Position numbers and translations under genes: made by a program. The notes beneath the pieces are model-generated. The model was not told the origin of the DNA. It made no database searches and was given only the letters and a program-made list of their open reading frames with translations. This document shows positions 9,218-26,658 of a stretch of DNA of 64,000 nt, piece after piece. Within the stretch, counting starts at the first letter, position 1; the number at the start of each line of letters is the position of its first letter. Source of the DNA: Methanofollis sp. W23 (GTDB lineage: Archaea; Halobacteriota; Methanomicrobia; Methanomicrobiales; Methanofollaceae); contig NZ_JAGGMN010000001.1 of the NCBI RefSeq assembly GCF_017875325.1, forward strand, positions 1,302,001-1,366,000, written 5' to 3'.

Positions 9218-10138
9218 TCAGCGCCTGCGACGGTCGACCAGGGAGATCAGGTACAGGGGCCGCTCAGAGATCTTGCCCACGGTCAGGAGCACGTCGATCT
9301 CCTCGCCATCGGCCCGCCTGATCACCGCCTCGCACCCCTCAGAAGGAGACGCCGCACCCCCCTTCCTGCACCGGTTGAACTCGTCGAGGACATGCTGCTG
9401 GTCAGGCAGAAATATCGAGGTCCAGCGCCGCCCTATCAGGTGAGTTCTGTCCTCGCCAAGGAGTTCACCACACCGGGTGTTGACATGGATCAGGGCTCCG
9501 TCCTCCCTGACCATCGCCATCGCCGTCCCTGCATGCTCAAAGATTGCCCGAAGATTATTTTCCAGGCGATTCAGACGCTCTTCCACATTTTTTCGTCTCG
9601 CCGCCTCGGTCATGGACCGGTGGAGGTGGGTGAGGTTATGGGAGAGGAAATGGCCAAGGACGATATACTTCTTCCTGGCCTCTTCGACCTCCTTCTCAGA
9701 GAGAACCGAGACCTCTGCAAGGGCATCTTCATAGTCCCTGACAGGATATCCATACCGCTGCGCCAGGCTCAGGAAATATCCAGACTTCGGCTCATTCTCT
9801 GAACGGAAAAACGGGGGTCCAAGGAGGGTCGCCACATGCCGCTCCCCGATGGTGACCGGGACGGCGATCCGCCAGAGATGATAGGGGCAGAGATAGACGA
9901 AAAAACTCCGAGATGAGGCATAGGTGCCGACCTTTGCCATACATTTCCTGCACTCCCTCCCACTGGCCGTATGTTTCCTGTGAAACTCAGAGCAGACTCG
10001 TGCCTCCCCGACAGACACGCACTCACGGCCTTCGAGAGTGAGGAGAGACGACGGGAGACCAAGAAGGTCGCCGGCTTCATCGAGCAGGGTATGCAACCTG
10101 GTGAGTTCAGGGGCCTGGACAACAACTCGTTCGCTCAT
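9218..10138 (-). CDS. PocR-domain and PAS-domain sensor protein without output domain
   Basis: A 306-residue cytosolic sensor. Residues about 10-165 resemble the PocR ligand-binding domain: the cysteine pattern EFHRKHTASGRECRKC and VYLCPYHLWRIAVPV are typical of this metal- or small-ligand-binding fold. A coiled linker (about 165-195) leads to a PAS domain (about 190-300: NNLRAIFEHAGTAMAMV, then LLGEDRTHLIGRRW). In this family PAS domains usually continue into another PAS or a histidine kinase, but here the protein ends directly after the last PAS strand (LISLVDRRRR). It may be a truncated kinase or a stand-alone sensor. No obvious ribosome site precedes the ATG. Confidence 0.75.
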   Translation of the reverse strand: MSERVVVQAPELTRLHTLLDEAGDLLGLPSSLLTLEGRECVSVGEARVCSEFHRKHTASGRECRKCMAKVGTYASSRSFFVYLCPYHLWRIAVPVTIGERHVATLLGPPFFRSENEPKSGYFLSLAQRYGYPVRDYEDALAEVSVLSEKEVEEARKKYIVLGHFLSHNLTHLHRSMTEAARRKNVEERLNRLENNLRAIFEHAGTAMAMVREDGALIHVNTRCGELLGEDRTHLIGRRWTSIFLPDQQHVLDEFNRCRKGGAASPSEGCEAVIRRADGEEIDVLLTVGKISERPLYLISLVDRRRR

Positions 10139-11004: not shown

Positions 11005-12000
11005 TCAGAGGGGTGAAGGCCAGCCTTCGCCATGCCCCTCAGAGAACTCTGCAACCATGTAGTCCATGAACTCATGGGCAAGGTCAGGGTGCGGGGCGGT
11101 GTTCGGGACCGTCGCCGCATAGACGATCGGGTTACCGATCCGCTCGCTCCCGATGGACCCGAACCGCTGGAACCCAAGTTTCACCACTGCCTTCTTGTAG
11201 TCGTCGGCATATGCCGCAGCACTGAGGTCGATCTCGGTCGGGAGGGTGACATAGTTCAGGCCATGCCCCTCGGCGACACTCAGGTACTCGAAGGCATAGT
11301 CCACTCCGCCGGCGTCCAGGAGCGAGAGGAGATAGATGCTCCCGTCCCGCACCCGGACCTTCTCGCCCTCTGCCTTGAGGACTTCAGGGAGGGTGATCAC
11401 CGTGGCGTCCCCGTCCTGAGAGACCTCTGGTGCGGGATTGAGATAGTCGCCGAGGATGGCGTCATAGATGGTGTCGTTGTCATAGTAGTCCTCGGCAAGC
11501 GTCGTCACCATCAGCGAGCGGTAGCCCGCGGCATCGAGCATCGGGTTCGAGATCCCGACGACGACGTCTGGCCTGGCAAGGACTTCATGCCAGTTCTTGC
11601 TGGAGATCTCGTCGGCATACAGGCTGTGGTTGGTATAGGCAACGACCACCTGGTTGGTGGCAAAGGTGGTGTACGAGTCGGTGTAGTTCCCTTCGCCTTC
11701 CTCCATCGGGCGGTACATCATATCAGGGATGAGTGCCTCGTCTGCGACCACCACCACGTCGATGGCGCGGTGGAGGTCGGTCACCTGCCTCACGCACTGG
11801 ATGGACCCGTGCCCCTCGATCTGGACATCCACCCCAGGATGGGAGGCCTCAAACCCGGCCTCCACCTCTTCCATAGGAAGAAGAAGACTCCCGGCCGGGA
11901 CGACACGGAGAGTGGTGGGTGCGTCGTCGCCGCCGGTACACCCGGCAGTCAGGACGCACGCCGCCGCAAGGAGGAGGAGCATGAGGGGGAGGCCCCTCAT
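11005..12000 (-). CDS. wtpA: WtpA-like tungstate/molybdate-binding lipoprotein
   Basis: A 331-residue extracytoplasmic solute-binding protein of the WtpA branch, which captures tungstate or molybdate for ABC import. A lipoprotein signal ends in VLTAGC. The family's signatures follow: VVPAGSLLLPMEEVEAGFE, then GSIQCVRQVTDL, then ADEALIPDMMY, then TFATNQVVVAYT, then SNPMLDAAGYRSLM. I chose the ATG at 12000 because it overlaps the upstream stop as ATGA, as is the rule in this operon. No WtpB permease or WtpC ATPase is adjacent, so this is an orphan binding protein. Its place at the end of an operon of molybdopterin-oxidoreductase-fold surface proteins suggests a shared ligand or cofactor, but that is inference. 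Confidence 0.8.
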   Translation of the reverse strand: MRGLPLMLLLLAAACVLTAGCTGGDDAPTTLRVVPAGSLLLPMEEVEAGFEASHPGVDVQIEGHGSIQCVRQVTDLHRAIDVVVVADEALIPDMMYRPMEEGEGNYTDSYTTFATNQVVVAYTNHSLYADEISSKNWHEVLARPDVVVGISNPMLDAAGYRSLMVTTLAEDYYDNDTIYDAILGDYLNPAPEVSQDGDATVITLPEVLKAEGEKVRVRDGSIYLLSLLDAGGVDYAFEYLSVAEGHGLNYVTLPTEIDLSAAAYADDYKKAVVKLGFQRFGSIGSERIGNPIVYAATVPNTAPHPDLAHEFMDYMVAEFSEGHGEGWPSPL

Positions 12001-12575
12001 GAACGTTCCACCTCGATCGTGTCCACCCACTTCACCCAGGCGCTCCCTTCAGTGATGGTGCCAGGGTCGTCGGTGCCGACCACGATCCTCAGCGGGCCGC
12101 CATCCCCTTCTGGGACCGCCGTGCCGTTGAACTCGTAGGCAAGGACCAGGGTGAGGTCTGGCGAGGTTTTCTCCTTGAGATCCTCGTCAAAGGTCACAAA
12201 CCCCTTCCCGGCCACCTGCTCGTCGTCGAAGACCCAGTAGTAGCCGTCAGGCGCCGAGATCCCGACCTGGTCGCCGGTTTCAAACCCACCGATCTGCTCG
12301 AAGAGCGTGGTGAGAGGGACACCTTTCACCGTATAGGGGCCGTATTTGATCCCGACCGTGGAGACCGCATAGCCATAGCCCTCCCAGGCAGGGAGTGCCT
12401 TGACCTCATCGAAGGTGAGCACCTTCTCCTGCGTGCCGTCGGTGAGCGTGAGGTTCCAGGCGACCTTGTCCTCGACCTGAGCACCAGGATCGTTCGTCCC
12501 GGTACACCCGCAGACTGCGGCCGCCGCGCAGACGAGCGCAACGAGGGCCAGGCACTGGATGATACGGGCCTTCAT
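11997..12575 (-). CDS. Sulfite-oxidase-fold (molybdopterin-binding-like) lipoprotein
   Basis: A 192-residue secreted lipoprotein; the signal ends AAVCGC. The mature part resembles the oxidoreductase molybdopterin-binding fold: LTFDEVKALPAWEG, then YTVKGVPLTTLFEQIGGFETG, then ISAPDGYYWVFDDEQV, then the closing WVKWVDTIEV. I do not see the conserved catalytic cysteine context of true sulfite oxidases, so redox activity is doubtful and ligand binding is more likely. The ATG at 12575 overlaps the upstream stop as ATGA, and its own stop overlaps the WtpA-like start in the same way, so the three genes are translationally coupled. Confidence 0.7.
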   Translation of the reverse strand: MKARIIQCLALVALVCAAAAVCGCTGTNDPGAQVEDKVAWNLTLTDGTQEKVLTFDEVKALPAWEGYGYAVSTVGIKYGPYTVKGVPLTTLFEQIGGFETGDQVGISAPDGYYWVFDDEQVAGKGFVTFDEDLKEKTSPDLTLVLAYEFNGTAVPEGDGGPLRIVVGTDDPGTITEGSAWVKWVDTIEVERS

Positions 12576-13423
12576 CGGCGCATCCTCCATACCAGTCCGG
12601 CAACACCAAGTCCGGTCAGCAGCCCGAAGACCGGTGCCGGACTCTCTGTGGGTTCTGTGGTCGCCGGAACCCCGGTCGTCTCAGGTAAGGCAGAGCCCTG
12701 GAGTGACTTGACAGGGACATTCTTGGCCCCGCCGTAGCCGTCCTCATAGACCCGCACCTCGTCGATCCACTTCACGGTATAGCCTGAGGTAGAGGGGTAG
12801 AGGTTGTTGAAGAGGTGGAGGCGTTCGGGCGGGAAGCACTCGCGCATATCCTGGTTCCCGAAGACATGTTTGCCCTCAGGGTTGGTGGAGTTGTCGGCAA
12901 AGAAGACCAGACGCATGGCGGCATGATAGTCAGACGGATAGCCGACACCCTGCCGTTCACCGACAGCGGCGTCCTCGCCATTGTACCAGCAGATGCCGAT
13001 CGGGCCCTGGCGCGGCTGGGGTTCATAGACGTTCTCGTACCCGAACTCGATATGGTACCCGTCGCCCGCCTTGATCATCACTTCGTCGCCGGGTTCCATC
13101 CCACCGACCAGGTCGCAGAGGTCGGCAAGGTCAGTCCCCTTCACTGCCCCGCGGTCCTTGAAGTTGGTGGTCTCGTTCCTGTCCCACTGGGTCTCTTTGT
13201 CTTCAGCAAAGACCGGGCCCTGATGGTAGTAATGGGTCACGCCGTCGCCGAGGACAGGGAGGTTCGTCTCCATCCACTGGTAGTCGACGGTCGTCTCATT
13301 GAGCACCGTGGTGCCGTTGTCTCCAAGCTTTACCACATACACCGAGTCGGTCGGTGCGGCCTGCACCCCTGCGAAACATGCGCAGAGGAGCAGGATTAGA
13401 AATATACTCTTTGTTTCGTTCAT
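12572..13423 (-). CDS. Secreted SUOX-fold-like protein with C-terminal membrane anchor
   Basis: A 283-residue surface protein. A signal peptide (about 1-22) is followed by a single domain with the signature WMETNLPVLGDGVTHYYHQGP, then GTDLADLCDLVGGMEPGDEV, YENVYEPQPRQGPIGICWY, MRLVFFADNS and KWIDEVRVYE. It ends in a Thr/Pro/Glu-rich stalk and a C-terminal hydrophobic helix with a basic end (VFGLLTGLGVAGLVWRMRR), which resembles an archaeosortase-type sorting signal. The domain is paralogous to the N-termini of the proteins at 14696, 17739 and 18599. Its order of motifs matches the sulfite-oxidase fold of the next gene. It starts a few bases after the upstream phosphatase stop. Confidence 0.75.
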   Translation of the reverse strand: MNETKSIFLILLLCACFAGVQAAPTDSVYVVKLGDNGTTVLNETTVDYQWMETNLPVLGDGVTHYYHQGPVFAEDKETQWDRNETTNFKDRGAVKGTDLADLCDLVGGMEPGDEVMIKAGDGYHIEFGYENVYEPQPRQGPIGICWYNGEDAAVGERQGVGYPSDYHAAMRLVFFADNSTNPEGKHVFGNQDMRECFPPERLHLFNNLYPSTSGYTVKWIDEVRVYEDGYGGAKNVPVKSLQGSALPETTGVPATTEPTESPAPVFGLLTGLGVAGLVWRMRR

Positions 13424-13427
13424 ACAA

Positions 13428-14699
13428 TCACCATATTTTTCTCAGCCACAGAGTCGCGAGACCAAATGCCGCGCATGCGCTGAACGGAGAGAGCGGCGTC
13501 TGTGCGGGCTCTCCCCCTCCACGTTGCGGCGTCATCACCACGGTCTCGAAGACGGCGTCAGGGGGGTGGAGGGCCACGACCTCCTTGCTGTCCTCAGAGA
13601 GCGTTGCCACCGGCACCAGTTCGGCGGTGACATTCTCAGCGGTCACGTGGACCCGGAGGTAGGCGAGGGTGTGCTCAAGACTGTTCGCATACCCGGCCAT
13701 TTTTTCCTCTGCAAGCGGGTAGAGCGCTTCCCCGCCGCAGGGGACTACGAAGTATTCGGTCCCGTTCACTTCGTAGCGCTCGTAGGCATGGACATGCCCG
13801 CTGAAAACCCCGGCAACACCGTAGCGCTCGAAGAGCGGGGTCCAGGCCTCGCGGAGAGTGCGGTCCCCGCCCCGGTGGCGCTCATTGGAGGAGAAGACCG
13901 GGTGATGGAAGGCGGCAAAAGTCCACTGCTCCTCGGCACCGGCAAGGTCGTCTTCCAGCCATACGGTCTCTTCGTCGAGCCGCCCCTTCGCCCAGTCATT
14001 GGAGTCGAGGACCGCAACGTGGGCCCGGCCGCAGTCGAAGGAGTACCACTCAGGCACCTCGAAAGTCTCGTAGTACACCGAACGGTTCCCTTCGTGGTTG
14101 CCGAGGGCCGGGTAGAGGGTGGTGTTCGAAAGCATCTGCCGTCCTGACGCGAAGAACTGGTTCCACTCGTCGAGGTCATGCCCGAAGGTGACGAAGTCCC
14201 CGCAGTGGAGGACAAACGAGAGGCTCTCCTCCATCGCAATCCGGTCGGCGACCAGTTTATGCCGTTCCATGGGGGTGAAGTAAGGGGCCTGGCCTCGCGT
14301 GTCGCTGTAGACCACAAAGGTGCATGCCCCCTCCCCGAAAGTCCTGAACCGGCAGTCAGGGCCGGTCGCCCCGTCGGTGTTTACCGCGTAGTGATAGACA
14401 GTCCCAGGGGTCAGATCGGTGAGGGCGACGTGGTGGAGCGAGGTTGTGACGTCGTCGGTCACCTCCGCGGTGTATCCCTCCTCCTGAAAGGTTGTCTCAT
14501 CGGCGTAGGCCACCACACCCCCGGCCGTCGGCCCGGCGGTCTTCCATGAGACGACCGCCGAGGTCTCGTCGGTCCCGGTGACATACGGCCCCCAGAGGAG
14601 GGCGTCCCCCGCTGCCGTCGCTGCGGCAGGGAGGAGGAGCATGGCAAGAAGGAGCCATGCGACGCCGCCCTTCTGCTCAGAAGATCTTACGCCAATCAT
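13428..14699 (-). CDS. Secreted purple-acid-phosphatase-like metallophosphoesterase
   Basis: A 423-residue predicted extracellular phosphoesterase. A signal peptide (about 8-30) is followed by a fibronectin-type domain (about 32-120: SAVVSWKTAG, then TPGTVYHYAV) as in purple acid phosphatases, and then the catalytic domain. Metal-ligand motifs are in order: YSDTRG (Asp133), HCGDFV (Asp168), GNHEG (Asn201, His202), FHHPVFSS (His265/266) and SGHVHAYER (His302, His304). A C-terminal hydrophobic helix follows a Pro-rich stalk, as in the neighbouring surface proteins. The ATG overlaps the stop of the upstream gene as ATGA, so it is coupled to the surface operon and probably acts on phosphate esters outside the cell. 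Confidence 0.85.
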   Translation of the reverse strand: MIGVRSSEQKGGVAWLLLAMLLLPAAATAAGDALLWGPYVTGTDETSAVVSWKTAGPTAGGVVAYADETTFQEEGYTAEVTDDVTTSLHHVALTDLTPGTVYHYAVNTDGATGPDCRFRTFGEGACTFVVYSDTRGQAPYFTPMERHKLVADRIAMEESLSFVLHCGDFVTFGHDLDEWNQFFASGRQMLSNTTLYPALGNHEGNRSVYYETFEVPEWYSFDCGRAHVAVLDSNDWAKGRLDEETVWLEDDLAGAEEQWTFAAFHHPVFSSNERHRGGDRTLREAWTPLFERYGVAGVFSGHVHAYERYEVNGTEYFVVPCGGEALYPLAEEKMAGYANSLEHTLAYLRVHVTAENVTAELVPVATLSEDSKEVVALHPPDAVFETVVMTPQRGGGEPAQTPLSPFSACAAFGLATLWLRKIW

Positions 14700-17600
14700 C
14701 TCCTCAACCTGACCTCACAGGTCGCCACCTGGTCCGGGTGGACCATCACGTCTTCAACGGTCTTTGAGTCAGAGCGCCCGACCACCTTGACAGAGTACTT
14801 TCCGAGGTCCATCCCGGTGAAGAGGTGCGGGGTGACCTCTCCGGTGTTCTTCTCGTAGAGATAGATCCGCCCTCCCGCCGGGGTGCTGTTCACATACAGA
14901 CTGCCGTGGGCATAGGTATCCAGGGTGAACTTTATCGCGCGGTCGTCGATCCTCTCAGGGATGAAGACCTCATCCTCTTTGGGGAGATACCCCGGCTTTG
15001 TGACCATCACGCCATGCCGCCCGTACGAGACATTCTCGATGAGGGCAGGTGTCGCGTGACCGGTGGCAAAGCCGTCGATGAAGACCTCGGCCCCGCCCGG
15101 AGTCGAGTCGACCCTGAGGGTGGTCAGAGCAGGCACGTCATCAAGCGTCACGGTCCCGCCATCCTCCGCCCGGTCCGAGACCGGGAAAGAGAGGAAGGTG
15201 GCGTTATGGCAGAGAGAGACATATGCCGTGAGCGGCGGAACCTTCACCTTTGCCGGGATCTTCTTGCCGGTCGCATGCCCATTGACGGCACACATCTCGC
15301 CCTTGAAGCCAGGGGCCTCGATGGTGACCGCACGGTCCATGGAACCGCCTTCATAACGGCTGAAATAGGCTGGGACGATCTTACCGGCGATGACCCAGAC
15401 CTCCTTGGTGTCGACATTATACGAGATCTTGTCTTTTTTGATCTTCACCTTGTGCCGCCCTTCCTTGAGGCCGTTGACCACCTTGGGAGTTTTTCCCTCG
15501 ATCTTTCTGCCGTCGATATAGATCGTGGCCCCTGCGTCAGAGGCGTCGACATAGATCCCACCAGAGCGCAGGTCGCTCCCCTGCGTGGCAAGGAGGTCCA
15601 GGCCGTTCGGGTCGACTTTCCTGTTGGGGTTGGTGGATTCAAGGGCAACGGTCACATCGGTCTCCTCGGTGAGGTCAAAGGTGGTCTCGTAAGGGCGATA
15701 GCCCTCAAGGACCAATTCGAGGGAGTGGGTGCCGGTGGACACGTCCTCCAGTCTGGCCGGGGTGATCGTCCCGAGATACTCCCCGTCAAGGACGACCTGT
15801 GCTCCGGCCGGGGCGGTGATGATGGTGAGGGATGCGCTCTCAGGGAGCGCAGGTGCGGGCGTGGGGGTCGAGACTGGTTCAAGGACCGGAGGCGGCGTGG
15901 GTACCGCAGGAATATCGGCCTCCGGTGCCGGGAAGAGCGAGCCAACGAGCGGGAGGCCATGAAGCCAACCAAAAAGCCCGGACCAGAGATCTCCTTCCTC
16001 GGTGTCCTCGCCATCTCCTGCCGCAAGTTGGGTGGTGGGCGGGAGCGTGGCGGTGGTCTGGACGACGGTGGGGGGTGGCGTTGTCTGTGTCGGCGTCGGC
16101 TCAGCCTCCGGCTCTGCGTCGCCGACGACCAGGACCGCAAGACGGTTCTCCAGATAATCGCCGCGTTCATCATAGGAGACGCTGGAGACGGCAAGGGTGT
16201 TCTCCACCGGCCTGAGGTACGGAGTCACCTCAGCCTCTCCGATCGAGATCTTCTCTTCACCTGCATTGAGGAGGTTCATCCACTCTCCGTCATGGAAGGT
16301 GAGAGCGTTGGTGTAGGTGTCGTTCCCGCATGCCCCGGTCACGACCGAGAAGACCCTGGCCTCGATATCCCCGTTTCGCATGACCTCTTCGGCAAACTCC
16401 GCCTTGCTGGTCGCGGCTTCTTCCTTGACACCCGCAGCCTGGTCGGCCTCGATGGCGTCCGCACCCTCGGCCACCCAGTAGGTAGTGGTCGTTTCATTCT
16501 CCCTGACGACCGCAAAGAGCACCCCGCCGTACAGGGTGAGCCCGGTCTCTTCAGGGCCATGATAGTTCATGTCAAGTGAGAGGTTGCCTGCCGGCACCGG
16601 AGCCTTGAGATCATAGCACCAGGTCTCGACGGCAGGTTCGTCGTCGTCAGGGCCGAGGTCGGCATAATATTCGGCGAGAGTGAGTGTCTGCGAGTCGAGC
16701 ACGGCAGAGAGATCGTCCTTCTTGGCCTCGTCCTTTGCGGTGTTGTTGGTCCCGAAGAGGTACAGGCGTGCGGTCTCGACGTCCTCAAGCCCGGTGGTGT
16801 TGAGCGTGAAGTGTGCGGTCTCGCCGGAGGTGATGTTCTGTGCACCGCCATCGGTCTGGAGAAGAGAGACCGAACCGTTCACTGTCCCATGAAGGGCCTG
16901 GGTGAGCATTGCGCCCTCGAACCCGTGGGACTTTGAGAACCCTCCGCTATCGCCGCCCCCTCCGCTACCAGAGGAGGAACCGCCCTGGCTGGGATCGATC
17001 TGGCTGAAGATAGTGATCCGATCGACATGATAGACTGAGTTACCGCTTGCTGAGGGCAACTCGTTATTATAGAAATACCAATACTCCTCATCCCACGACT
17101 CGTGCATGTCCCAGTTGCCCCAGACATGCATCCCGGCATCGTTCATAGTCTCGGAGAGGAAGTAGAGGCGCATGCCATTTGAAAATCCTTCGTCGATGTA
17201 GCCATAACCATGCCCCTCATCTTCTTTTCCATGATACCAGGCAATCACCATCGGGCCCTGCCTGGGGTTGGGAGAATTGACGTACTCTGCCGGCCACTTT
17301 TTATACATCCCGTCACAGGCCTTGATCTCGATCATGTCTCCCTCTGCCGCCCCACCGACGAGGTCGCAGAGGTCTTTGACGTCAGTGCCCATGAACTCGC
17401 CATAGTCCTTATAATCAAGGTTGATGTCCTCGGTCGGGTTCCAGTAGTTATACTCCTCGCCAGGATGGGCCTCTTTCCAGCCCCCCTCAAAGATCGGGCC
17501 CTGGTTGTAATAGGTCGTCTCGCCGTCGCCCTGCACAGGGAGATTGTCTCTCATCCACTCCCAGGTGACGGTCTTCTGGTCGAGGACTGTCTTCTCGTCG

Positions 17601-17731
17601 TTTGCCAGTTTAGTAATTGTCAATTCGGTCGTCGGCGCCGCAGAGGCAGGGACCGCGATCAATGCTGCAAGAAAAAGAAAGAGTGCGGCGACGGCCAGGC
17701 ACCTGGCCGTCGTGCTGTGCATGCTCTTCAT
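14696..17731 (-). CDS. Large surface protein: SUOX-fold-like, DUF3344-like and PEGA domains
   Basis: A 1011-residue secreted protein. It has a signal peptide (about 1-31), then a domain of the WMRDNLPVQGDGETTYYNQG type (about 32-245) ending at a Ser/Gly-rich linker. A DUF3344-like region follows (about 270-540: LHGTVNGSVSLLQTDG, then ARLYLFGTNN), then a Thr/Pro-rich linker. The C-terminal third holds several PEGA-type beta domains (SLTIITAPAGAQVVLDGEYL; LRVDSTPGGAEVFIDGFATG; SLYVNSTPAGGRIYLYEKNT). Unlike its neighbours it has no C-terminal membrane helix, so its anchoring is unclear. The start at 17731 follows GGAGGTGA, which contains the stop of the upstream gene. Cell-wall or surface-layer attachment through PEGA domains is a plausible inference. 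Confidence 0.8.
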   Translation of the reverse strand: MKSMHSTTARCLAVAALFLFLAALIAVPASAAPTTELTITKLANDEKTVLDQKTVTWEWMRDNLPVQGDGETTYYNQGPIFEGGWKEAHPGEEYNYWNPTEDINLDYKDYGEFMGTDVKDLCDLVGGAAEGDMIEIKACDGMYKKWPAEYVNSPNPRQGPMVIAWYHGKEDEGHGYGYIDEGFSNGMRLYFLSETMNDAGMHVWGNWDMHESWDEEYWYFYNNELPSASGNSVYHVDRITIFSQIDPSQGGSSSGSGGGGDSGGFSKSHGFEGAMLTQALHGTVNGSVSLLQTDGGAQNITSGETAHFTLNTTGLEDVETARLYLFGTNNTAKDEAKKDDLSAVLDSQTLTLAEYYADLGPDDDEPAVETWCYDLKAPVPAGNLSLDMNYHGPEETGLTLYGGVLFAVVRENETTTTYWVAEGADAIEADQAAGVKEEAATSKAEFAEEVMRNGDIEARVFSVVTGACGNDTYTNALTFHDGEWMNLLNAGEEKISIGEAEVTPYLRPVENTLAVSSVSYDERGDYLENRLAVLVVGDAEPEAEPTPTQTTPPPTVVQTTATLPPTTQLAAGDGEDTEEGDLWSGLFGWLHGLPLVGSLFPAPEADIPAVPTPPPVLEPVSTPTPAPALPESASLTIITAPAGAQVVLDGEYLGTITPARLEDVSTGTHSLELVLEGYRPYETTFDLTEETDVTVALESTNPNRKVDPNGLDLLATQGSDLRSGGIYVDASDAGATIYIDGRKIEGKTPKVVNGLKEGRHKVKIKKDKISYNVDTKEVWVIAGKIVPAYFSRYEGGSMDRAVTIEAPGFKGEMCAVNGHATGKKIPAKVKVPPLTAYVSLCHNATFLSFPVSDRAEDGGTVTLDDVPALTTLRVDSTPGGAEVFIDGFATGHATPALIENVSYGRHGVMVTKPGYLPKEDEVFIPERIDDRAIKFTLDTYAHGSLYVNSTPAGGRIYLYEKNTGEVTPHLFTGMDLGKYSVKVVGRSDSKTVEDVMVHPDQVATCEVRLRR

Positions 17732-17738
17732 GGCTGGT

Positions 17739-18539
17739 TCACCTCCTCAGGGCGGCGACGGCACAGAGGGCAAGGAGCCCTGCCAGGGGAGAGAGGGGAG
17801 ACTCGGTGGCCGGGGTCGTCGGGAGATCGCCGGTATCGTTCCCGGCGTCATGTGCCGTGATCGCGAGTTCGCCCACATGCTTGACTGAAAGCCCGCTCGT
17901 CGAGGGCCAGTCGCCGCCGAAGAAATGCCACTCGTTCTCAGGGAGGGTCTCTTTCATATCATTGTTCCCAAAGACATGCCAGCCCCAGGGATTGGTCGAG
18001 GTGTCGGCAAAGAAGATCAGGCGCATGCCGTCATAATACTCAGGGACATACCCTGACCCCTGCGGGTCGCCGGTGAGGGAGTCCTCGCCCACGTACCAGG
18101 CGATCCCCATGGATCCTTTTCGTGGGTCTTCCTCGTAGACGCTCTCGTAGGAGAATTTCTTGTAGAACCCGTCTTCAGCCTTGACCTTGAGGGTATCGCC
18201 GGCGGTCATGCCGCCGACAAGGTCGCAGAGGTCGCTGACCGCGGTCCCTTTCACCGCACCCAGATCACGTGTGTCGACGTTCTGGTATTCGGCAGGGTCC
18301 CAGAGGTCAGACTCGTTGAAGGTCGGGCCCTGGTGGTAATAATGGGTCTTGCCGTCCCCAAGGACAGGCAGGTTCTCCTCCATCCATGTGTAATCTACAG
18401 TCCGCTCGTCCAGGACGGTGGTCCCGTCAGGGGCGTACTTGACGACATGCACCTCGCTCGTCGCGGCGGCCGCCGGTATCATGAAGACCAGCATGAGCAG
18501 CACGAGTGGGGCGATTTTCAATACGCCGTGCTCTTTCAT
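17739..18539 (-). CDS. Secreted SUOX-fold-like protein with C-terminal anchor
   Basis: A 266-residue surface protein paralogous to the one at 12572-13423. It has a signal peptide (about 1-27), a domain with WMEENLPVLGDGKTHYYHQG, GTAVSDLCDLVGGMTAGDTL, YEDPRKGSMGIAWY-like and MRLIFFADTSTNP motifs, and a hydrophobic C-terminal helix ending in RR (LSPLAGLLALCAVAALRR). AAAGGAGTTG lies shortly before the ATG. It follows the giant gene at 18599 after 59 bases that include a T-run on this strand, so read-through may be partial. Its function is unknown; a surface ligand-binding role is inferred from the fold. Confidence 0.75.
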   Translation of the reverse strand: MKEHGVLKIAPLVLLMLVFMIPAAAATSEVHVVKYAPDGTTVLDERTVDYTWMEENLPVLGDGKTHYYHQGPTFNESDLWDPAEYQNVDTRDLGAVKGTAVSDLCDLVGGMTAGDTLKVKAEDGFYKKFSYESVYEEDPRKGSMGIAWYVGEDSLTGDPQGSGYVPEYYDGMRLIFFADTSTNPWGWHVFGNNDMKETLPENEWHFFGGDWPSTSGLSVKHVGELAITAHDAGNDTGDLPTTPATESPLSPLAGLLALCAVAALRR

Positions 18540-18581
18540 TTGTCATTCAACTCCTTTTTCAAATCCGGAAAAATTCATGTT

Positions 18582-18598
18582 GCATAAAAAAATGGGGA
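18582..18598 (-). terminator. Possible internal terminator or attenuator in the surface operon
   Basis: On the minus strand a T7 run (18586-18592) follows the stop of the giant gene within 15 bases, in the only sizeable gap of the operon (59 bases). It could lower expression of the downstream genes. Confidence 0.35.
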
Positions 18599-21500
18599 TT
18601 ATTTTCTCCTGAGGACCAGGAGTGCACCGAGGGCGATGAGCGGCAGGCCCCAGAAGACCGGGGTCTTGGTCGGTGCGGTGGTCGGCACCGTCGTCTCATC
18701 TGCCGTCTGGTTCACCGGCATGGTCGGGGTCTCGACCGGGGCCTCGACTGCCGGCTGCGTCTCCTCAGGCTCTGCGGCCCCGCCCGTCATGGTGACGATG
18801 GCGAAGTACGAGAACCCTGGCGAGTCGGCGCGGTAGACTGCCCTGTCATTCTCCTCGCTGACAAGGGTGGTGTCGAGGTGCTTCCAGGCGCCGTCGACAT
18901 ACCTCAGCATGACCACGTCGCCTGCCTCGACATCATGACTCTCAAGCCAGGTCGATGGCACGGCGAACTCGAGGGTGATCCCGTCGAGCGCCGCAGGGTC
19001 GGCATGGTAGAGGGTGACCTCCTGGAGTTCATACACCTGGCCGTCAGGCATCTGGACGTCGTTTCCGAGATGGGCCTTCTTCACTGTGACCAGGAAGTCT
19101 GAAACTTCTTCGTAGGCGGTGACCGTGATCTTTTCGATCGCCGTCTCGCCTACCAGGAAGGTCTTCGTCTCGTCGGGCTTGAATGAAGCGGCAAAGGCGG
19201 AGACATCGGAGGAACCGCTGCTGGAGGAAGAAGTATGGCTGACCGGTTTTGGATCTGGTTTGGGTTCAGGTGCTGCACCGCCGACCGCGAAGTAGCAGAA
19301 TTTGTCGGTGGTTGCACTGAAGTACGCTCTTCCATTCTCCTCCTTGACATATGTGGTCGTGAGAGTCTGCCAGGCACCGTCGGTGTACCGCATCAACTTC
19401 ACATCGCCGGCCTTCATCCCGTGGTCACACAGCCAGCTGACCGGGAGGTCAAAGGTGATGACGGCCTCGTCGATGGTGTTCTCTGGGGCCGGGTAGACGA
19501 CATGGAGGTACTGGTAGATCCTCTCTGCCGGTGTGTCGATGTAGTTAGGGAGTTCTTCAGGGGTTCTGATCGCGAGTTTTCCATCTGTGATGTCACCGGC
19601 GGCCTTGATGGTGATCGCCGAGAACGCTCCCTCTTCAAGGTCGAGCGTCGTATTCTCACCGGCACCGATGTCACCGATGGCGACGACCTCGTCTTCCATG
19701 GTCGACGGGATGAAGGCGATCTTGACGACGCCCTTGATGGTGTCCATGCCGCTGACATTCTCGCCCACAAGCCTGAGCGGCCAATTTTCATCGTCACCGT
19801 CGAGATGCAGGCCGTTCAGCGAGTTTGCAAGGATGTAGTTGTCGCTGTACATCGCATCGCGGCTGTTGATGACTGTCTCTGAACCGTCGCGGCCGATGAT
19901 ATGGACATCATAGCCTTCTCTTGCAAGGTCGGCATTGAATGACTTACCAGTATGGAAGTTCTCGTCGTCGACATAGCCAAGGAGGAACCAGAGGGGCATA
20001 CCAGACCATTCTCTACCTTTCTTGTCGATATAGGACTTCTCATGGTTGGCGCCCATGGTGCAGGCAAGACCGCTCTCAAAGTAACCCTTGCTGATGGCCT
20101 TGTCTATGGCCCCTTCGAGCTGGAGGTTCCAGTCTGGTTCAGGCACGTCGTAGATCCTGATCTCTGAGACATATTTGGCCGAGAGACCGGCGCAGGACGG
20201 GAGGCCGGAGTTGTAGTGCCAGTACTTCTCGTCGATGCACTCGTGCATGTCCCACTGGCCGAAAATGCGGTCTTCGGGCGTGAAGAAGAGCCGATACCCG
20301 TCATTGTAGTCAGGGACATAGCCCTTCCCTCCGGAGTACCAGGCAAGGACGGCCTCGCCCTGCCGCTCATCCGGAGCATAGATGTTGTCGTAATGGAGGG
20401 TCGTCTCCCATCCGTCAGGGGCGGCGAAGGTGATCTCGGTGTCCGGGCCCATACCGCCAACAAGGTCGCAGAGGTCACGGACTGAGGTGCCCATCATCTG
20501 CTCTTCGATCTTGAAGTAACCATGAGGATAGGTCTCGTCCTGGTCCCATGGGTCGTTGGGTGGGAAGTTCAGGCCTTCATAGCGGTAATATGTCTCGCCA
20601 TCTCCATAGACCTTGAGGTTCTCCTTCATCCAGGTGTAGTCGACGGTTTTCTCGCCGATGACCGTCGTGCGATCTTCGGCGTACTTGACGATCCGCACCG
20701 TGGGGATCTCGGTCGGTTTCTGGAACTCGGTCAGTTCGATGCTTTTGATACTGGCAACACTTTGAGAGCCTTCGGTCAGTGCAGAACCGACCAACCTGAC
20801 TGGGTAACCGTTTTCGTTAGTCAGAGGGGTCCCGTTCAGTTTGTTGGCAATGATGAAATCGTTGTTCTTCGAGATCGCTTCGCTACTGAACTCCTTGCTG
20901 TAGTCCCCAGACCCGGTGACTATCACCGTGTAACCCTGTGCAGCAAGTTTTGTGTTAAATGCGCCAGAGCCATGGATGGTGTAGTCGTCGACCCATCCGC
21001 AGAGACTCCAGAGTGAGATACCCGACCATTCACGGTTCTTATTGTCAGTCCAGGTGACGGTGTGGTATGGACATGCCGCTGCCGCCTCAAACTCGCTCTG
21101 GGTGAAGGTATCGGTGATCTCACCCTTCAGAGTGAGGGTCCATTCGCCGGGTTTCGGGCCTCCCGGCAGGCCGACAAGTGAGATCTCACTGATGGTTCCG
21201 ACTTTCTGTTTCCCAGAGGTGACGTTCTTCCCTACCAGTTTGAGCGGGAAGTCTCCCTCTGCAAGCGGTTCTCCGTTGAGAGTGTTGGCCACGATATAGT
21301 TGGGACTCTTTGCGACGTCGGCGCTGTCGAAGGTTGCATTGAATCCGTCTGGCGCACTCACCTTCACAGTATAGCCATCTGCAGCGAGATTGTCATTGAA
21401 TGCATCCTGACCATGGACGATGTGGTCGTCGACCCATCCGGCGAAGTACCAGAGTGGAATGCCCTTCCACTCACCGTCCTCGTCGGTGTAGGTGACGCCG

Positions 21501-24052
21501 TGGCACCTGACAGACTCTTCGAAGAACGCCTGCGTAAAGGTGTCTTCGATATCACCCTTCAGGGTAAGTCTCCAGCCTTCTGAAGGATCAGGGAGACCGA
21601 CAAGTTCGATGGTGCCGATATTCCCGATCTTCTTGCCCATGGTTACATCCGGGCCCACCATCTGGAGCGGCCAGCAGGGTTTGCCTCCAGAGGTCAGTTC
21701 AGGCAGGGGCTCCCCGTTCAGGGTGTTGGCCACGATATAGGTGTCGTCCCTGGCAATGGTTTCGCTCGGGAAGTTGATGTCGTATGGACTTGTACGGTTC
21801 CGGTCGGTGACCTTCACCGAGTAGCCTTCAGCGGCCAGTTCGTCGTTGAAGGTGTAGTGGTCGCCGCTCTCCTCGTCGTCGACTGCTCCCACGAGGTACC
21901 AGAGGGGCACGCCCTTCCATTCGCCGTCCTCGTTGGTGTAGGTGGCGACATGGCCGCAGGCCACTGCCTGTTCAAACTGTGCCCTGGTGAACGAGAGCGG
22001 GGTCTTGCCCTTCAGCGTAAGGGCCCAGTTCTTTTCAACTGGTGGTTCGCCACCGATGAAAATTCTAACTTTGGCGATGGCTTTTTCGGGACCATAACCA
22101 TCCTGCTTGATGTCGCCATAGTAGAAGAGGACATCATTGTCGTTCTCAAGCGGGTAGATATTCAGACCCTCGGTGGAGGGGTTGCCGTAGTCGTCAAGCG
22201 TGGCGCCGTCGACCGAGCATGTCCATGCCCACTGCTCGACAGTTTTTCCACCCTCGTCCTTGACTTTTCTGAAGGTGTACTCCCCGACGTCGTCGAGCAT
22301 CAGGATGCCGCTATCTGTCATCTTCTTGTCGGTGAGCACATAGTCAAAGCCGCCCACCTCTGCGGCTGCGTGTAACGCTCCGAGAGGGGTGAAGTTGTTG
22401 ACCTGGTAGACGTTGGTATTGACCGTCTGGTCAAATGTGCCCTCTTCAAGGATTACACCGCCGTCATAGAGAGAGTCGATGCCATCGCTGATCCTGACGG
22501 TGATTCGCACGATCGCGTCTGCCTTCTCAGGCCCGAAGTTCTCGATCTTCGTGTCACCGTAATAGAAGAGGAGACGGTCGCCGTCGTGGAGTTCGTAGAC
22601 ATTGACCGCCATCGGGTTGTTGTCATACCCGTCAAGGACAGTGTCGTCGTTCAAGAGGCAGGTCCAGGTATACTTGTAACCAGGCGTTGCATCTTTGGCA
22701 CTCCTGTTGTAGGCGTACTTCCCGATGTCGTCAAGATAGAGCGTCGGCCAGTCTTTGTCGCCGACCTTGTAGGTGAAGGCCTCGATCTCCGATACCGCAT
22801 CAAGGGCACCGAGAGCAGTCAGTCGGTTGACCTCACGGTCGGTCTCGACATCGCCATTATAGGCCATGACAGTAAAGGTCTCTGGCGTGAGCGTGACTTC
22901 GCCGTCATAGAGTACGTCGACGTCCCCGCCAGGCTGATCTGGCAGGTCGAGTTCGATCTTCGAGATCCCTTCAAGTGCCCGCTGGGTCCCATCCACACCG
23001 GTCCCCTGCAAGTAGAGGGGGAAGAAGACGCGGCCGTCAATCCCGGTCTTGTTCAGTTCGATGCCGTCGAGTCTGTTCCCGAGGACATAGGTCTTCTCGC
23101 CGTCCGTCACTTCGGTGGAGTAGAAGGTAGAGATCTGTTCTGTGCCCTTCTTCTCACCGTAGACCGTGATCGTGTAGTTCTGCGCGGCGAGGGCTTTGTT
23201 CACGGTCGCGGGGTCGTCGTCGTCGACAAGACCGATGACCGCAGAGAGGTCAGCGCCTTCAAGAAGACCAAATTTGTTTGTCTGGAATGAAGCAGGGTGT
23301 GCCGCAGCAAGGGTGATGAACTCGTCCCTGGTGAGGGTGCGGTCGGTCGAACCGTTGAGGGTGATGGACCAGTCCTCTGGGGCGGGGTCACCACTCTGGA
23401 CGGTGATGTTGGTGACTGCCTTTGAGGAGAGGCCCTTTGAGGAGGGGAGGCCGTCATTATAATGACAGTTGTCAGGGAGGCAGTCCTTCATGTCCTGGTT
23501 GCCGAAGACATGCTTGCCGTCTGCATTGGTGGTCTCGGCAAAGAAGACCAGGCGCATCCCATCATAATACTCAGGCACATCTGCCCCATCCTTGTACCAG
23601 GTGACGACCATCTTCCCCTGTCTGGGGTCGGGGTTGTACACATTCTCGTAAGGGTAGGTCTGTGGGTCATAGTTGTCGATGGGGGTGACCGTCACCGTGT
23701 CCCCTTCATCCATGCCGACGACCTCACAGAGATCCTTGAGATCGGTACCCTTCAGGGCGCCCATGTCCAGAAGGTTCTGGTCCTCGGCAAGGTTCCAGGG
23801 ATCTGAGGTGACCGGACCCTGGTGATAATAGTGGGTCTCACCATCTCCCTGGATGGGGAGGTCTGGTCTACCTGCTTTCAATGTGTTGAGGCTGATCGGT
23901 ACCTCATCAAGTTTGGTACCGTCTTCAGCCAGTTTTATCACGGTCACTTCGGTCGTGGGAGTTGGGTCTCCCGCAGCCACAGGGGCGACAAGCATCCCTG
24001 CAACGGCAAAGACCAGAAGTGCCAGGATTATAAATCGGTTCTTCATCTTCAC
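18599..24052 (-). CDS. Giant surface protein with repeated SUOX-fold-like, DUF4430-like and PGF-pre-PGF domains
   Basis: An 1817-residue secreted protein; positions are approximate. It has a signal peptide (1-27) and an N-terminal domain with GDGETHYYHQGP (28-225). The next unit is a SUOX-fold-like repeat (226-378), followed by two DUF4430/transcobalamin-like domains (379-530 and 531-670). Three more repeats follow (671-822, 823-963, 964-1110; signature WKGIPLWYFAGWVDDH, then YIVANTLNGEPL). A second WMKENLKVYGDGETYY domain (1111-1305) and a fifth repeat (1306-1452) come next. Two PGF-pre-PGF domains (1453-1590 and 1620-1760) end in GFSYFAI or FCYFAV. A Thr/Pro stalk and anchor (TPVFWGLPLIALGALLVLRR) close the protein. 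GAGGTGA precedes the ATG. It is probably the first gene of the operon. Confidence 0.8.
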   Translation of the reverse strand: MKMKNRFIILALLVFAVAGMLVAPVAAGDPTPTTEVTVIKLAEDGTKLDEVPISLNTLKAGRPDLPIQGDGETHYYHQGPVTSDPWNLAEDQNLLDMGALKGTDLKDLCEVVGMDEGDTVTVTPIDNYDPQTYPYENVYNPDPRQGKMVVTWYKDGADVPEYYDGMRLVFFAETTNADGKHVFGNQDMKDCLPDNCHYNDGLPSSKGLSSKAVTNITVQSGDPAPEDWSITLNGSTDRTLTRDEFITLAAAHPASFQTNKFGLLEGADLSAVIGLVDDDDPATVNKALAAQNYTITVYGEKKGTEQISTFYSTEVTDGEKTYVLGNRLDGIELNKTGIDGRVFFPLYLQGTGVDGTQRALEGISKIELDLPDQPGGDVDVLYDGEVTLTPETFTVMAYNGDVETDREVNRLTALGALDAVSEIEAFTYKVGDKDWPTLYLDDIGKYAYNRSAKDATPGYKYTWTCLLNDDTVLDGYDNNPMAVNVYELHDGDRLLFYYGDTKIENFGPEKADAIVRITVRISDGIDSLYDGGVILEEGTFDQTVNTNVYQVNNFTPLGALHAAAEVGGFDYVLTDKKMTDSGILMLDDVGEYTFRKVKDEGGKTVEQWAWTCSVDGATLDDYGNPSTEGLNIYPLENDNDVLFYYGDIKQDGYGPEKAIAKVRIFIGGEPPVEKNWALTLKGKTPLSFTRAQFEQAVACGHVATYTNEDGEWKGVPLWYLVGAVDDEESGDHYTFNDELAAEGYSVKVTDRNRTSPYDINFPSETIARDDTYIVANTLNGEPLPELTSGGKPCWPLQMVGPDVTMGKKIGNIGTIELVGLPDPSEGWRLTLKGDIEDTFTQAFFEESVRCHGVTYTDEDGEWKGIPLWYFAGWVDDHIVHGQDAFNDNLAADGYTVKVSAPDGFNATFDSADVAKSPNYIVANTLNGEPLAEGDFPLKLVGKNVTSGKQKVGTISEISLVGLPGGPKPGEWTLTLKGEITDTFTQSEFEAAAACPYHTVTWTDNKNREWSGISLWSLCGWVDDYTIHGSGAFNTKLAAQGYTVIVTGSGDYSKEFSSEAISKNNDFIIANKLNGTPLTNENGYPVRLVGSALTEGSQSVASIKSIELTEFQKPTEIPTVRIVKYAEDRTTVIGEKTVDYTWMKENLKVYGDGETYYRYEGLNFPPNDPWDQDETYPHGYFKIEEQMMGTSVRDLCDLVGGMGPDTEITFAAPDGWETTLHYDNIYAPDERQGEAVLAWYSGGKGYVPDYNDGYRLFFTPEDRIFGQWDMHECIDEKYWHYNSGLPSCAGLSAKYVSEIRIYDVPEPDWNLQLEGAIDKAISKGYFESGLACTMGANHEKSYIDKKGREWSGMPLWFLLGYVDDENFHTGKSFNADLAREGYDVHIIGRDGSETVINSRDAMYSDNYILANSLNGLHLDGDDENWPLRLVGENVSGMDTIKGVVKIAFIPSTMEDEVVAIGDIGAGENTTLDLEEGAFSAITIKAAGDITDGKLAIRTPEELPNYIDTPAERIYQYLHVVYPAPENTIDEAVITFDLPVSWLCDHGMKAGDVKLMRYTDGAWQTLTTTYVKEENGRAYFSATTDKFCYFAVGGAAPEPKPDPKPVSHTSSSSSGSSDVSAFAASFKPDETKTFLVGETAIEKITVTAYEEVSDFLVTVKKAHLGNDVQMPDGQVYELQEVTLYHADPAALDGITLEFAVPSTWLESHDVEAGDVVMLRYVDGAWKHLDTTLVSEENDRAVYRADSPGFSYFAIVTMTGGAAEPEETQPAVEAPVETPTMPVNQTADETTVPTTAPTKTPVFWGLPLIALGALLVLRRK

Positions 24053-24272: not shown

Positions 24273-26522
24273 TCAAGAATTCTGCCTGATCAGTAGCGCC
24301 GCACCGGCGGCAGCCAGAGAGAGCGCCCATGCGGGCGAAGATTCCTGTGGGGAGGTAGGGGGGATGTCGTTTCCATCTGGTCCGCCTGCGGCCCCTTCCT
24401 GCGCGACCTGCACATCAGCGCCCGGCACACCGGCCACGGCAAAGAGGGAGAGCGTATCTGACGATGCCGAGAACTCCTGGTACCCGTCTCTCACGCTCCC
24501 TGCATCGGTGGCGAGTGCGGTCCAGGCGGTGCCGTCATGGCACATCAGAGCGACGTCACGAGCTTCGAGTTCCTGGTCCTCGATCCAGGAGAGGGGCACC
24601 CTGAACGTGACCGTAAGTGCGGTGGGATCGGCCCTCGCACCATTCAGGCCGATGTCGAGATAGCGATAGACCGGGGCATCAGGGGCCTGCACCGCACCGG
24701 CGGACTCCTGGTCATGCACTTCGAGATGGATAGGGGAACGCTGCTCAGGGAGGGTTGCCGAGACCTTCTTGACAACCTGGTTGTCGGTGATGAAGGCCCT
24801 GGTCATCGGTGCGGTCGAGGATGCGGCACCCGAGTCACTGCGGCCCGGGGGAGTGCCGGCGGTCGTGACCAGGACCGCGACCCTGCTCTCCAGCACCCCA
24901 CCGGTGGCGGCGTCCTTCGTCGCCCGCATCATTGCGGTGTTCTCTCTCGGGAAGAGCACCGGGAGGACGTCGAGGTCTGCCATTAAGAGCCTGCCGTCGG
25001 CGTGCAGGGCGTCAGTCCACTCGCGGTCATTGAACCCGAGGATCGAGGTCGGCCCGGTGCCCGCCACAAGCAGACGGGCGGCGGCCGTCTGGTCGAGGTC
25101 GAGGGGGTCGTCGAAGATGGCCTGGCTCATGGCGTCGTCCTCGAAGACTCCGCCTTCCTCATCGATGGCCAGGGCATCGCACCCGGCCACGACCTGCCAG
25201 GTGACCTCAGGGAGAGCCAGGTCTTCACGCACCACCAGGAGCGCCCCGCCGTCGAGGGTGCAGATGCCGTCACCATTCTCGACGGTGACAGAGGTATCAC
25301 CAGGCGTGATCTCTTCAAGGTTGAAGAGATAGGTCGCCGCCACCGCTGCGTCCTTCTTCCCTGCCCGGTCGGTGAAGGTCTTGTCAGGCGTGACCGTCGT
25401 CCCGTCGATCAAGACGGTCAGGTCGGGTTCAGTCCCGGTGCCGTCCTCTTTATTCTTTGCATCGCTCACGAAGAGATAGAGGACTGCGCTCTCGACAAAA
25501 CCTGTTTCATTTCCCGGGTTGAAGGTCAGGGTCGTCCGCTCTCCCGCACCCAGAACTCCACCGGTTCCGGTGACAGGGAGGAGAGAGACCGAGCCGTTCA
25601 GGTAGTTGCCGGGTGGAGCGGTTGTCTCTTTTCCAGAGAGACCTGAGGCATCTGTGGTCCCGTCGCTCCCTCCGTCAGGGGAGACATCGCCCGTGCCCGA
25701 CGGCGCCGTCCCGACAACCGAAAACCCGCTGCTCCCCGGACCTGAGACGCGGTTCGTCCATGAGATCCCGAGGCCCTGGTTGGACTGGTTGCACCAGCCA
25801 TAGGAGTTGAACGCAGCATAGGTGGGGAGGTTCTCGAACTCGTACTCCACCCTGACCGCACCGTCGTCTCTTAAATCGTTGAGCCGGGAATTTTCGCCGA
25901 GTGTCCCTGCATTGAGATCGATGAAGACGAGATGGAAGGGGTTTGAGCCGTCAGAGACGTCCTGGCCATAATAGATCGGGTATGCCCCTGGCTGGTTGTT
26001 CCCTGCGGGTTTCCAGGTTTGGGGGCTGTACACGATGTCTTCCTTCGTGATCGTCCCCTCGTACGACCCCTCGACGTACTCGACCTCATCTGCCGCAGGG
26101 GGCATGTTCAGGACCGTCGTCGGGGTCCACCGGTAACCGCTCGCCCTGATGTGGAGAGCGAAGTCGTCGGGGATGGTGCCGTTGACCGCGACCATCAGGA
26201 TCATGTCGTCGGTGAATCCTCTCCCCCCCGTGTTGGTGAGATAGAAGACACCCGACTGTTCTTCGGTGTTCGTCACCTGCCCGAACGGCTCATTCTCAGG
26301 GTCGGTGCTGATGTGGAGGGCGTTGAGCCCGCCGCCATCGAACTTGAAGTACTTGGTCAGCCCGTCGGAGAGCTGGAGGTCAAAGTGGTTGGACCCCGGC
26401 ATCGTGATCCCGCCTATGTCCTCGGCCGCGGCCGGGACGACACAGGCGATGAGAAGGGAGACCGCCAGCACCGTCAATACAAGAAGTGATCGTCCAAATT
26501 TTTTTCTGATATCATTCATCAT
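24273..26522 (-). CDS. Secreted surface protein with paired beta domains, DUF3344-like and PGF-pre-PGF-like domains
   Basis: A 749-residue surface protein. A signal peptide (about 1-33) is followed by a domain containing FDGGGLNALHIS and FYLTNTGGRG and ending near SGYRW (about 40-135). A second domain has EDIVYSPQTWKP, VRVEYEFENLPTYAAF and ISWTNRVSGPGSSGFSVVG (about 145-275). A DUF3344-like region (about 300-560) and a PGF-pre-PGF-like domain (about 575-700, VYRYLDIGLNG, then SLFAVAG) follow. The stalk and anchor are AWALSLAAAGAALLIRQ. The first two domains recur in the same order at 26659-31113 and in reversed order at 37444-38244. GGTGGGAAT precedes the ATG. It appears monocistronic. Confidence 0.8.
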   Translation of the reverse strand: MMNDIRKKFGRSLLVLTVLAVSLLIACVVPAAAEDIGGITMPGSNHFDLQLSDGLTKYFKFDGGGLNALHISTDPENEPFGQVTNTEEQSGVFYLTNTGGRGFTDDMILMVAVNGTIPDDFALHIRASGYRWTPTTVLNMPPAADEVEYVEGSYEGTITKEDIVYSPQTWKPAGNNQPGAYPIYYGQDVSDGSNPFHLVFIDLNAGTLGENSRLNDLRDDGAVRVEYEFENLPTYAAFNSYGWCNQSNQGLGISWTNRVSGPGSSGFSVVGTAPSGTGDVSPDGGSDGTTDASGLSGKETTAPPGNYLNGSVSLLPVTGTGGVLGAGERTTLTFNPGNETGFVESAVLYLFVSDAKNKEDGTGTEPDLTVLIDGTTVTPDKTFTDRAGKKDAAVAATYLFNLEEITPGDTSVTVENGDGICTLDGGALLVVREDLALPEVTWQVVAGCDALAIDEEGGVFEDDAMSQAIFDDPLDLDQTAAARLLVAGTGPTSILGFNDREWTDALHADGRLLMADLDVLPVLFPRENTAMMRATKDAATGGVLESRVAVLVTTAGTPPGRSDSGAASSTAPMTRAFITDNQVVKKVSATLPEQRSPIHLEVHDQESAGAVQAPDAPVYRYLDIGLNGARADPTALTVTFRVPLSWIEDQELEARDVALMCHDGTAWTALATDAGSVRDGYQEFSASSDTLSLFAVAGVPGADVQVAQEGAAGGPDGNDIPPTSPQESSPAWALSLAAAGAALLIRQNS

Positions 26523-26638
26523 ATTCCCACCATTGAGAGAAAGAGGGGTTCAAGTATGCTTCTGTATCTCCGTGTCCCCTGATGAAGTTTGTTTTTTTAC
26601 CGAGGTTCAATAGATGTGTTGAACTCGGTCCTACTGCA

Positions 26639-26650
26639 CAGAAAAAAAGG
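26639..26650 (-). terminator. Terminator after the 1484-residue surface gene
   Basis: On the minus strand a T7 run (26642-26648) lies about ten bases after the stop codon. Confidence 0.5.
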
Positions 26651-26658
26651 AGATGATT

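Follow-up and report, generated by a model that had tools for sequence, protein, structure and literature searches.

The sulfite oxidase (SUOX) fold is shared by the PF00174 enzymes (SUOX, SorA, SorT, and MsrP) and by PruR (PDB 7kos, 7kou, and 7kom), a secreted periplasmic signaling protein of ∼170 amino acids that lacks the molybdenum-ligating cysteine, binds tetrahydropterins, and is paired with DcpA/DTB regulators (PMC13259868). Asn/Asp102, Tyr104, and Trp160 have been noted at the pterin site of PruR, and this site is reported as probably not large enough for the molybdenum cofactor (PMC13259868). A further group comprises the SLBB-type proteins (with DUF4430). In 2007, a scavenging role was proposed for them, with B12 as the target in bacteria and “a distinct metabolite” in archaea, and the same paper noted the fusion of SLBB to a sulfite oxidase-like domain in Syntrophomonas (PMC1796856). 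This is the nearest published precedent found for the locus analyzed here. Tungstate is transported by WtpABC. The Isd heme relay, built with NEAT domains, comprises a large multidomain anchored receptor, small single-domain anchored proteins, a lipoprotein, and an ABC importer.

Here, an operon of seven genes from Methanofollis was analyzed within a window of 64,000 nucleotides, the whole stretch of DNA under study. As in PruR, the best structural match to two of its protein types, secreted SUOX-fold domains occur without the molybdenum-ligating cysteine, and the Asn/Asp-x-Tyr pattern of the PruR site fits an invariant DGY in one lipoprotein; unlike in PruR, anchored surface proteins carry the domains in arrays, in the company of a phosphoesterase and a WtpA-type importer component, and pterin binding is predicted. 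The fold is also that of the PF00174 enzymes, of which family the S repeats and the lipoprotein are members, but the shared domain X and the lipoprotein have no SUOX cysteine motif, export appears to be of the Sec type, and the operon contains no electron-transfer partner. The final gene passes the WtpA family model and is followed by wtpB and/or wtpC in some relatives, whereas its product forms a type separate from canonical WtpA. Surface-exposed ligand-binding domains near ABC-type transport genes are likewise a feature of the SLBB/DUF4430 proteins in the passages available (PMC1796856), although the transport genes there are of the CbiO/CbiQ (cobalt/B12) type and not accompanied, as here, by Wtp-type components, X, and a phosphoesterase. 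The layout resembles Isd in organization alone, the domains being unrelated and the ligand probably different. The genes form a genuine, widely conserved, and apparently undescribed set: in agreement with the initial annotation, which knew of no such system, no description was found in the titles, abstract openings, and passages of the open-access literature searched.

Results

Organization of the Locus

All seven open reading frames that had been grouped into one surface operon were found on the minus strand between positions 24052 and 11005 of the window (Table 1), in a host genome of 2.9 Mb. They encode surface proteins, one metallophosphoesterase, and two lipoproteins, and they are tightly packed. 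Genes are named here by their lower coordinate. A gap of 59 nt separates 18599 from 17739, followed by a 7-nt gap (17739 to 14696), a 4-nt overlap (14696/13428), and a 4-nt gap (13428 to 12572). Counted from the first start codons, the last two overlaps, 12572/11997 and 11997/11005, are 19 and 34 nt long; they become ATGA if the internal Met6 (12575) and Met11 (12000), respectively, are used. Coupling by ATGA overlaps or gaps of 4-7 bases, as originally proposed, therefore describes every junction but the first. A stem with a T-run lies just past wtpA (10988-10962); such sites are not above chance frequency in the region. Pfam and NCBIfam recognized nothing in the 266- and 283-aa proteins, DUF3344 and four PEGA domains in the 1011-aa protein, and PF00174 repeats and two PGF-pre-PGF domains in the 1817-aa protein.

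Table 1. Features of the seven-gene operon, in window coordinates
Feature	Position	Strand	Remark
Giant 1817-aa surface protein with the domain order X - S - 2x DUF4430-type - 3x S - X - S - 2x PGF-pre-PGF, ending in a hydrophobic segment + RRK (archaeosortase-like anchor)	18599..24052	-	
X copy 1 of giant, aa 33-219	23396..23956	-	
S (PF00174-type) repeat 1 of giant, aa 226-373; the weakest of the five, lacking the conserved Cys	22934..23377	-	
Two DUF4430/SLBB-type domains of giant, aa 378-672	22037..22921	-	Identified via relatives
S (PF00174-type) repeats 2-4 of giant, aa 675-1112	20717..22030	-	
X copy 2 of giant, aa 1116-1302	20147..20707	-	
S (PF00174-type) repeat 5 of giant, aa 1306-1449	19706..20137	-	
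Single-X surface protein (266 aa) with a Sec-type signal and an anchor-like segment at the C terminus; source of the X domain modeled with AlphaFold	17739..18539	-	
X - DUF3344 - 4x PEGA surface protein, 1011 aa	14696..17731	-	
Secreted metallophosphoesterase, 423 aa; purple acid phosphatase-type N-terminal domain; metal-binding motifs conserved	13428..14699	-	
Single-X surface protein, 283 aa	12572..13423	-	
Predicted Cys-less SUOX-fold (PF00174, PruR-like) lipoprotein, 197 aa; lipobox-like AVCGC; internal start possible at 12575	11997..12590	-	
Operon-type WtpA lipoprotein, 341 aa; lipobox-like LTAGC; internal start possible at 12000	11005..12030	-	

Domain X and the Surface Proteins

The initial annotation recognized one paralogous secreted domain in four genes (18599, 17739, 14696, and 12572). 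This domain, X, is present in five copies because the 18599 gene holds two; the copies are 42-57% identical with 32 invariant columns, and chance is therefore excluded. Only scattered weak Pfam matches were obtained, none common to more than 2 of 76 copies, and X is also absent from NCBIfam; a sequence search of the PDB with the 76-member alignment gave no direct match. Comparison of profiles related X to the PF00174 lipoprotein of the operon (97.6%, E 3.7e-12) and, more weakly, to the S repeats (93%). The AlphaFold model of X from the 266-aa protein (pLDDT 95.6, pTM 0.91) was searched against the PDB with Foldseek, and the sole credible matches were the PruR entries 7kou, 7kos, and 7kom (probability 0.99-1.0, E 1e-3 to 3e-2, target TM 0.57-0.64). 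The match is moderate, with a best E of 1e-3 and a query TM of ∼0.43. According to this model, X has a SUOX-type fold, and its closest solved structure is a cofactor-free pterin binder and no oxidoreductase. Thus, the parallel in motif order to the sulfite oxidase fold had been drawn correctly, and an unrelated fold is not what the structure prediction returned.

In the 76-member alignment, no cysteine occupies the SUOX molybdenum-ligand position of X, the sole well conserved cysteine being located in a DLCDLVGG helix. A [DN]G pair followed by Phe, Tyr, or Trp is found in 59 of the 76 domains; the putatively corresponding pattern of the PruR pterin site is Asn/Asp-x-Tyr. A regular-expression scan of 308 X/S proteins detected a twin-arginine-like motif in a single one, and the signal peptides look to be of the Sec or lipoprotein type. 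Such export makes a cofactor preloaded in the cytoplasm unlikely, so the X/S surface proteins are probably cofactor-free binders rather than enzymes, with binding being predicted. Their designation as molybdopterin oxidoreductase-fold proteins consequently holds for the fold, whereas the PruR matches and Sec-type export speak against the function implied.

Besides its two X copies, the giant protein encoded by 18599 contains five PF00174-type (S) repeats, three of which pass the family model alone (82 bits in total). A cysteine near the start of the domain is conserved in 40 of 56 S repeats; the alignment to MsrP stops short of the molybdenum-ligand site with which it would be compared. The other repeated domain of this protein is assigned by sequence to DUF4430, of the SLBB/transcobalamin type. 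Among 32 copies taken from related loci, 7 matched PF14478 (best E 8e-6), and the copies in the window are assigned only via these relatives. The DUF4430/SLBB-type domains, on which the initial annotation was silent, point to small-molecule scavenging.

The 197-aa Lipoprotein

The 11997 product, previously regarded as a more canonical member of the oxidoreductase fold, does belong to PF00174 (39 bits against a cut-off of 24). Its AlphaFold model (pLDDT 94) matched PruR 7kom first in the PDB (E 3.8e-7, target TM 0.73) and sulfite oxidases next. A cysteine at the SUOX position is absent from the 28 aligned lipoproteins. By contrast with the earlier view, the model indicates a Cys-less PruR-like SUOX-fold protein. 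DGY is invariant in all 28 sequences, a WVKW-type motif is present in nearly all, and the loops are highly conserved. The DGY motif appears to fit Asn/Asp102-x-Tyr104 of PruR, and by its position a lipoprotein Trp is putatively equated with the Trp of the PruR site.

The Metallophosphoesterase

The 13428 product matches PF00149 and PF16656, and the residues of its five dinuclear metal-ligand motifs are 93-100% conserved over 54 proteins. In true purple acid phosphatases, the Tyr of the GDxxY motif belongs to the purple iron site. No conserved Tyr was found at this place among the 54 proteins, the window protein reading GDFVTF. The earlier description as a purple acid phosphatase-like enzyme is thus apt for the N-terminal domain and the metal motifs but not for the purple-type site, and the protein is best described from its sequence as a metallophosphoesterase with a purple acid phosphatase-type N-terminal domain, not a true purple acid phosphatase. 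Fusion of X to a phosphoesterase was observed in 12 distinct loci; in some loci (e.g. L088), no phosphoesterase was seen.

Further X clusters, without WtpA, are located elsewhere in the same genome (L136, 424-444 kb; L137, 1572-1592 kb; L138, 2.60 Mb). These contain X/S proteins, one DUF4430-S-X protein, and two proteins in which X is fused to a phosphoesterase (1389 and 1577 aa), the larger of which adds beta-helix, PKD, Big_2, and CARDB domains.

The Operon-type WtpA

The 11005 product is assigned to TIGR03730 WtpA (332 bits against a cut-off of 243). When 107 sequences were placed in a maximum-likelihood tree, the canonical WtpA of the order, together with the solved AF_0094, MA_0280, and MJ1186, were split from all operon-type WtpA by a branch supported at 100/99. 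Four WtpA for which no operon linkage had been flagged fall within the operon type and carry its characteristic His. This residue, beside the oxyanion-site Ser, is present in 68 of 68 operon WtpA, from bacteria to Methanofollis, and in 0 of 28 canonical proteins. The operon type also differs at chain positions 61, 123, and 126; the site Ser and Asp residues are kept (the Asp in 68/68), and Glu at chain position 207 occurs in 55 of 68 operon-type and 28 of 28 canonical sequences. The oxyanion-site carboxylates of AF_0094 are presumably Asp153 and Glu218. A Glu218-to-Ser change was considered as an operon-specific trait hinting at a new ligand and was dropped because 27 of the 28 canonical WtpAs of the order share the Ser. 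Tungstate, molybdate, or a related compound may be the ligand of the operon WtpA. One contig labeled Clostridiaceae (L075) groups closely with a Methanoculleus-type sequence in the tree and is probably misbinned.

Neither wtpB nor wtpC was found beside wtpA within the window or adjoining it in the Methanofollis and Methanoculleus loci read; a canonical WtpA and ModABC/WtpBC-type genes occur elsewhere in the host genome. Of the 60 loci with room downstream of wtpA, 13 have wtpB and/or wtpC there; these belong to Methanoregulaceae, ANME, and bacterial relatives. The lipoprotein gene immediately precedes wtpA in 67 of 72 loci. A few genomes are represented twice. These neighbors scored about 310 bits with the WtpB family model, just below its cut-off of 340, and 322-447 bits with the WtpC model, one being over the cut-off of 440. 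In Methanocorpusculum-type loci, wtpC/wtpB adjoin the operon on the opposite strand. Three sampled genomes (G005, G008, and G054) have no WtpA above the family cut-off other than that of the operon. Given this linkage in relatives and the genomes with a sole WtpA, the protein, an “orphan” by the initial annotation and indeed one locally, resembles an importer end that has become detached or reduced.

Distribution of the Gene Set

Of 199 genomes from the order, 80 were found to contain X, distributed over 24 of 38 genera, and presence is patchy within genera. The lipoprotein was detected in 71 of the 199, all among the 80 with X and with one copy each save for one genome with two; the Fisher p value for co-occurrence (2e-44, 199 genomes) is not corrected for phylogeny. 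Phylum-wide sampling found the lipoprotein outside the order too, and the set recurs in ANME and further archaea of the Methanosarcinales type as well as in bacterial records. Archaeal loci with X include Methanoculleus, Methanoregula, Methanolinea, Methanogenium, Methanocorpusculum, Methanospirillum, and Methanosaeta, and also Methanophagales (ANME-1), an ANME-2c record, and Argoarchaeum. Bacterial records comprise Peptococcaceae SCADC1_2_3, Dehalococcoidia UBA5760, and Bacillota/Firmicutes metagenome-assembled genomes, the last two assignments resting on record titles. The Peptococcaceae contig has an [FeFe]-hydrogenase upstream, which supports its bacterial origin. Across families, a recurrent order was observed of giant, X protein(s), phosphoesterase, X protein, lipoprotein, and WtpA, the last three being constant. 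The synteny survey called for at the outset has therefore found the genes to be co-conserved, and, as judged from these comparisons, the set is ancient and co-inherited.

Discussion

The binding of an oxyanion or pterin by a surface complex, as first suggested, is still the best working idea. In the form preferred here, to which we give somewhat less than an even chance, the operon would be a surface capture-and-relay uptake system whose likeliest ligand is a tungsten/molybdenum-bearing pterin, or tungstate/molybdate released from a pterin; capture, relay, order of events, and ligand are what we infer. Cofactor-free X and S SUOX-fold arrays and DUF4430/SLBB-type domains, on large and small anchored proteins, would bind the external ligand, from which the tethered or secreted metallophosphoesterase would trim a phosphate or phosphodiester. 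The membrane-anchored SUOX-fold lipoprotein would then take over the ligand and work with the operon-specific WtpA-type lipoprotein. The latter would deliver the oxyanion to a WtpBC-type ABC importer, encoded adjacently in some relatives and presumably elsewhere in the host genome.

A metal-pterin ligand would jointly explain the SUOX-fold binders, the phosphoesterase, and the Wtp components. Against it, by analogy, the site of PruR is likely too small for the whole cofactor (PMC13259868). Salvage of the molybdenum cofactor in place of its biosynthesis was rejected, since MoaE is present in all 132 high-quality genomes of the order (132/132), with or without the system; the system would therefore supplement cofactor synthesis, not replace it. 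A bolder proposal is that of a dedicated prokaryotic scavenger of extracellular tungsten/molybdenum cofactor, for example from dead neighbors, in which the cofactor would be captured by the SUOX-fold arrays and opened by the phosphoesterase, with the metal then passing to the WtpA-type importer; this we consider unlikely.

Scavenging of plain tungstate or molybdate (or thiotungstate/thiomolybdate), with no pterin involved and with X/S binding or concentrating the oxyanion or merely presenting WtpA, is the leading competitor, if still an improbable one. It accords with a WtpA that scores above its family cut-off and retains the Ser and Asp residues of the site, with the wtpB/wtpC genes of relatives, and with the three genomes that have no other WtpA over the cut-off, but it leaves unexplained both the pterin-binding type of fold in the partners and the X-fused phosphoesterase, and a canonical WtpA is already present in the host and many other genomes. 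That PruR is the closest solved structure to both X and the lipoprotein could instead reflect uptake or sensing of an organic metabolite (a reduced pterin or a methanopterin-type or corrinoid-like ligand), from which the phosphoesterase would remove phosphate, the freed phosphate or anion then being bound by WtpA. The ligand-scavenging class of DUF4430 and a PocR-PAS protein downstream in the window are in line with this account, which is nonetheless distinctly unlikely: a DcpA/DTB-type partner is missing from the operon, linkage to WtpB/WtpC points to an importer of the tungstate/molybdate type, and, in an unsystematic look at related loci, the PocR-PAS gene was no recurrent neighbor.

The uptake reading as a whole is challenged by the consideration that SUOX-fold domains could serve a structural or adhesive role. 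X and S would then be building blocks of the envelope and the WtpA linkage incidental, as might be surmised from large multidomain proteins with PGF-pre-PGF, PEGA, DUF3344, and anchor-like ends, and from X clusters in the same genome that carry beta-helix and CARDB domains and no WtpA. Such a surface layer is rather improbable in view of the lipoprotein-WtpA adjacency maintained from bacteria to Methanofollis, the single lipoprotein per genome (one genome excepted) in strict co-occurrence with X, and the highly conserved lipoprotein loops. Least probable by far is an array of surface molybdo- or tungsto-enzymes, with metal cofactors held in the SUOX-fold domains for extracellular redox chemistry. 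PF00174 membership of the S repeats and lipoprotein and the Cys of 40/56 S repeats would suit such an array, but that Cys is not placed at the molybdenum-ligand site by the short MsrP alignment, the Cys motif is lacking from the lipoprotein and from the SUOX position of X, export is of the Sec type, and the operon has no heme or electron-transfer partner gene.

The set is old and widespread among methanogens, ANME archaea, and certain anaerobic bacteria; for many of these organisms, one-carbon chemistry relies on enzymes containing tungsten or molybdenum. X defines a large family of SUOX-fold domains that neither Pfam nor NCBIfam contains and suggests that the sulfite oxidase fold has been turned into a surface binding module. 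Capture and relay by such modules would be a testable route by which anaerobes might obtain tungsten/molybdenum or pterins at the cell surface.

Several genes border the operon. No DcpA/DTB-type regulator is encoded within it, and the nearest regulator-like gene is that of the PocR-PAS protein downstream of wtpA (9218-10138), whose PocR sensory domain and PAS domain make it a possible regulator or sensor. In Methanoculleus (L126, L127, and L128), wtpA is followed by genes for two PaaK-like CoA ligases and an ACT-domain protein; in Argoarchaeum/GoM-Arc1-type loci (L073, L092, and L063), it is followed by a sodium-translocating membrane pyrophosphatase gene, identified in L073, or by a gene of the same length. 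Both were excluded as parts of the system, being lineage-specific. Directly upstream of the giant gene (24273-31182) are two further large surface proteins, one with DUF3344/PGF-pre-PGF and one with Big_2/NosD/beta-helix domains, the former being found at the same place in several other members of the genus.
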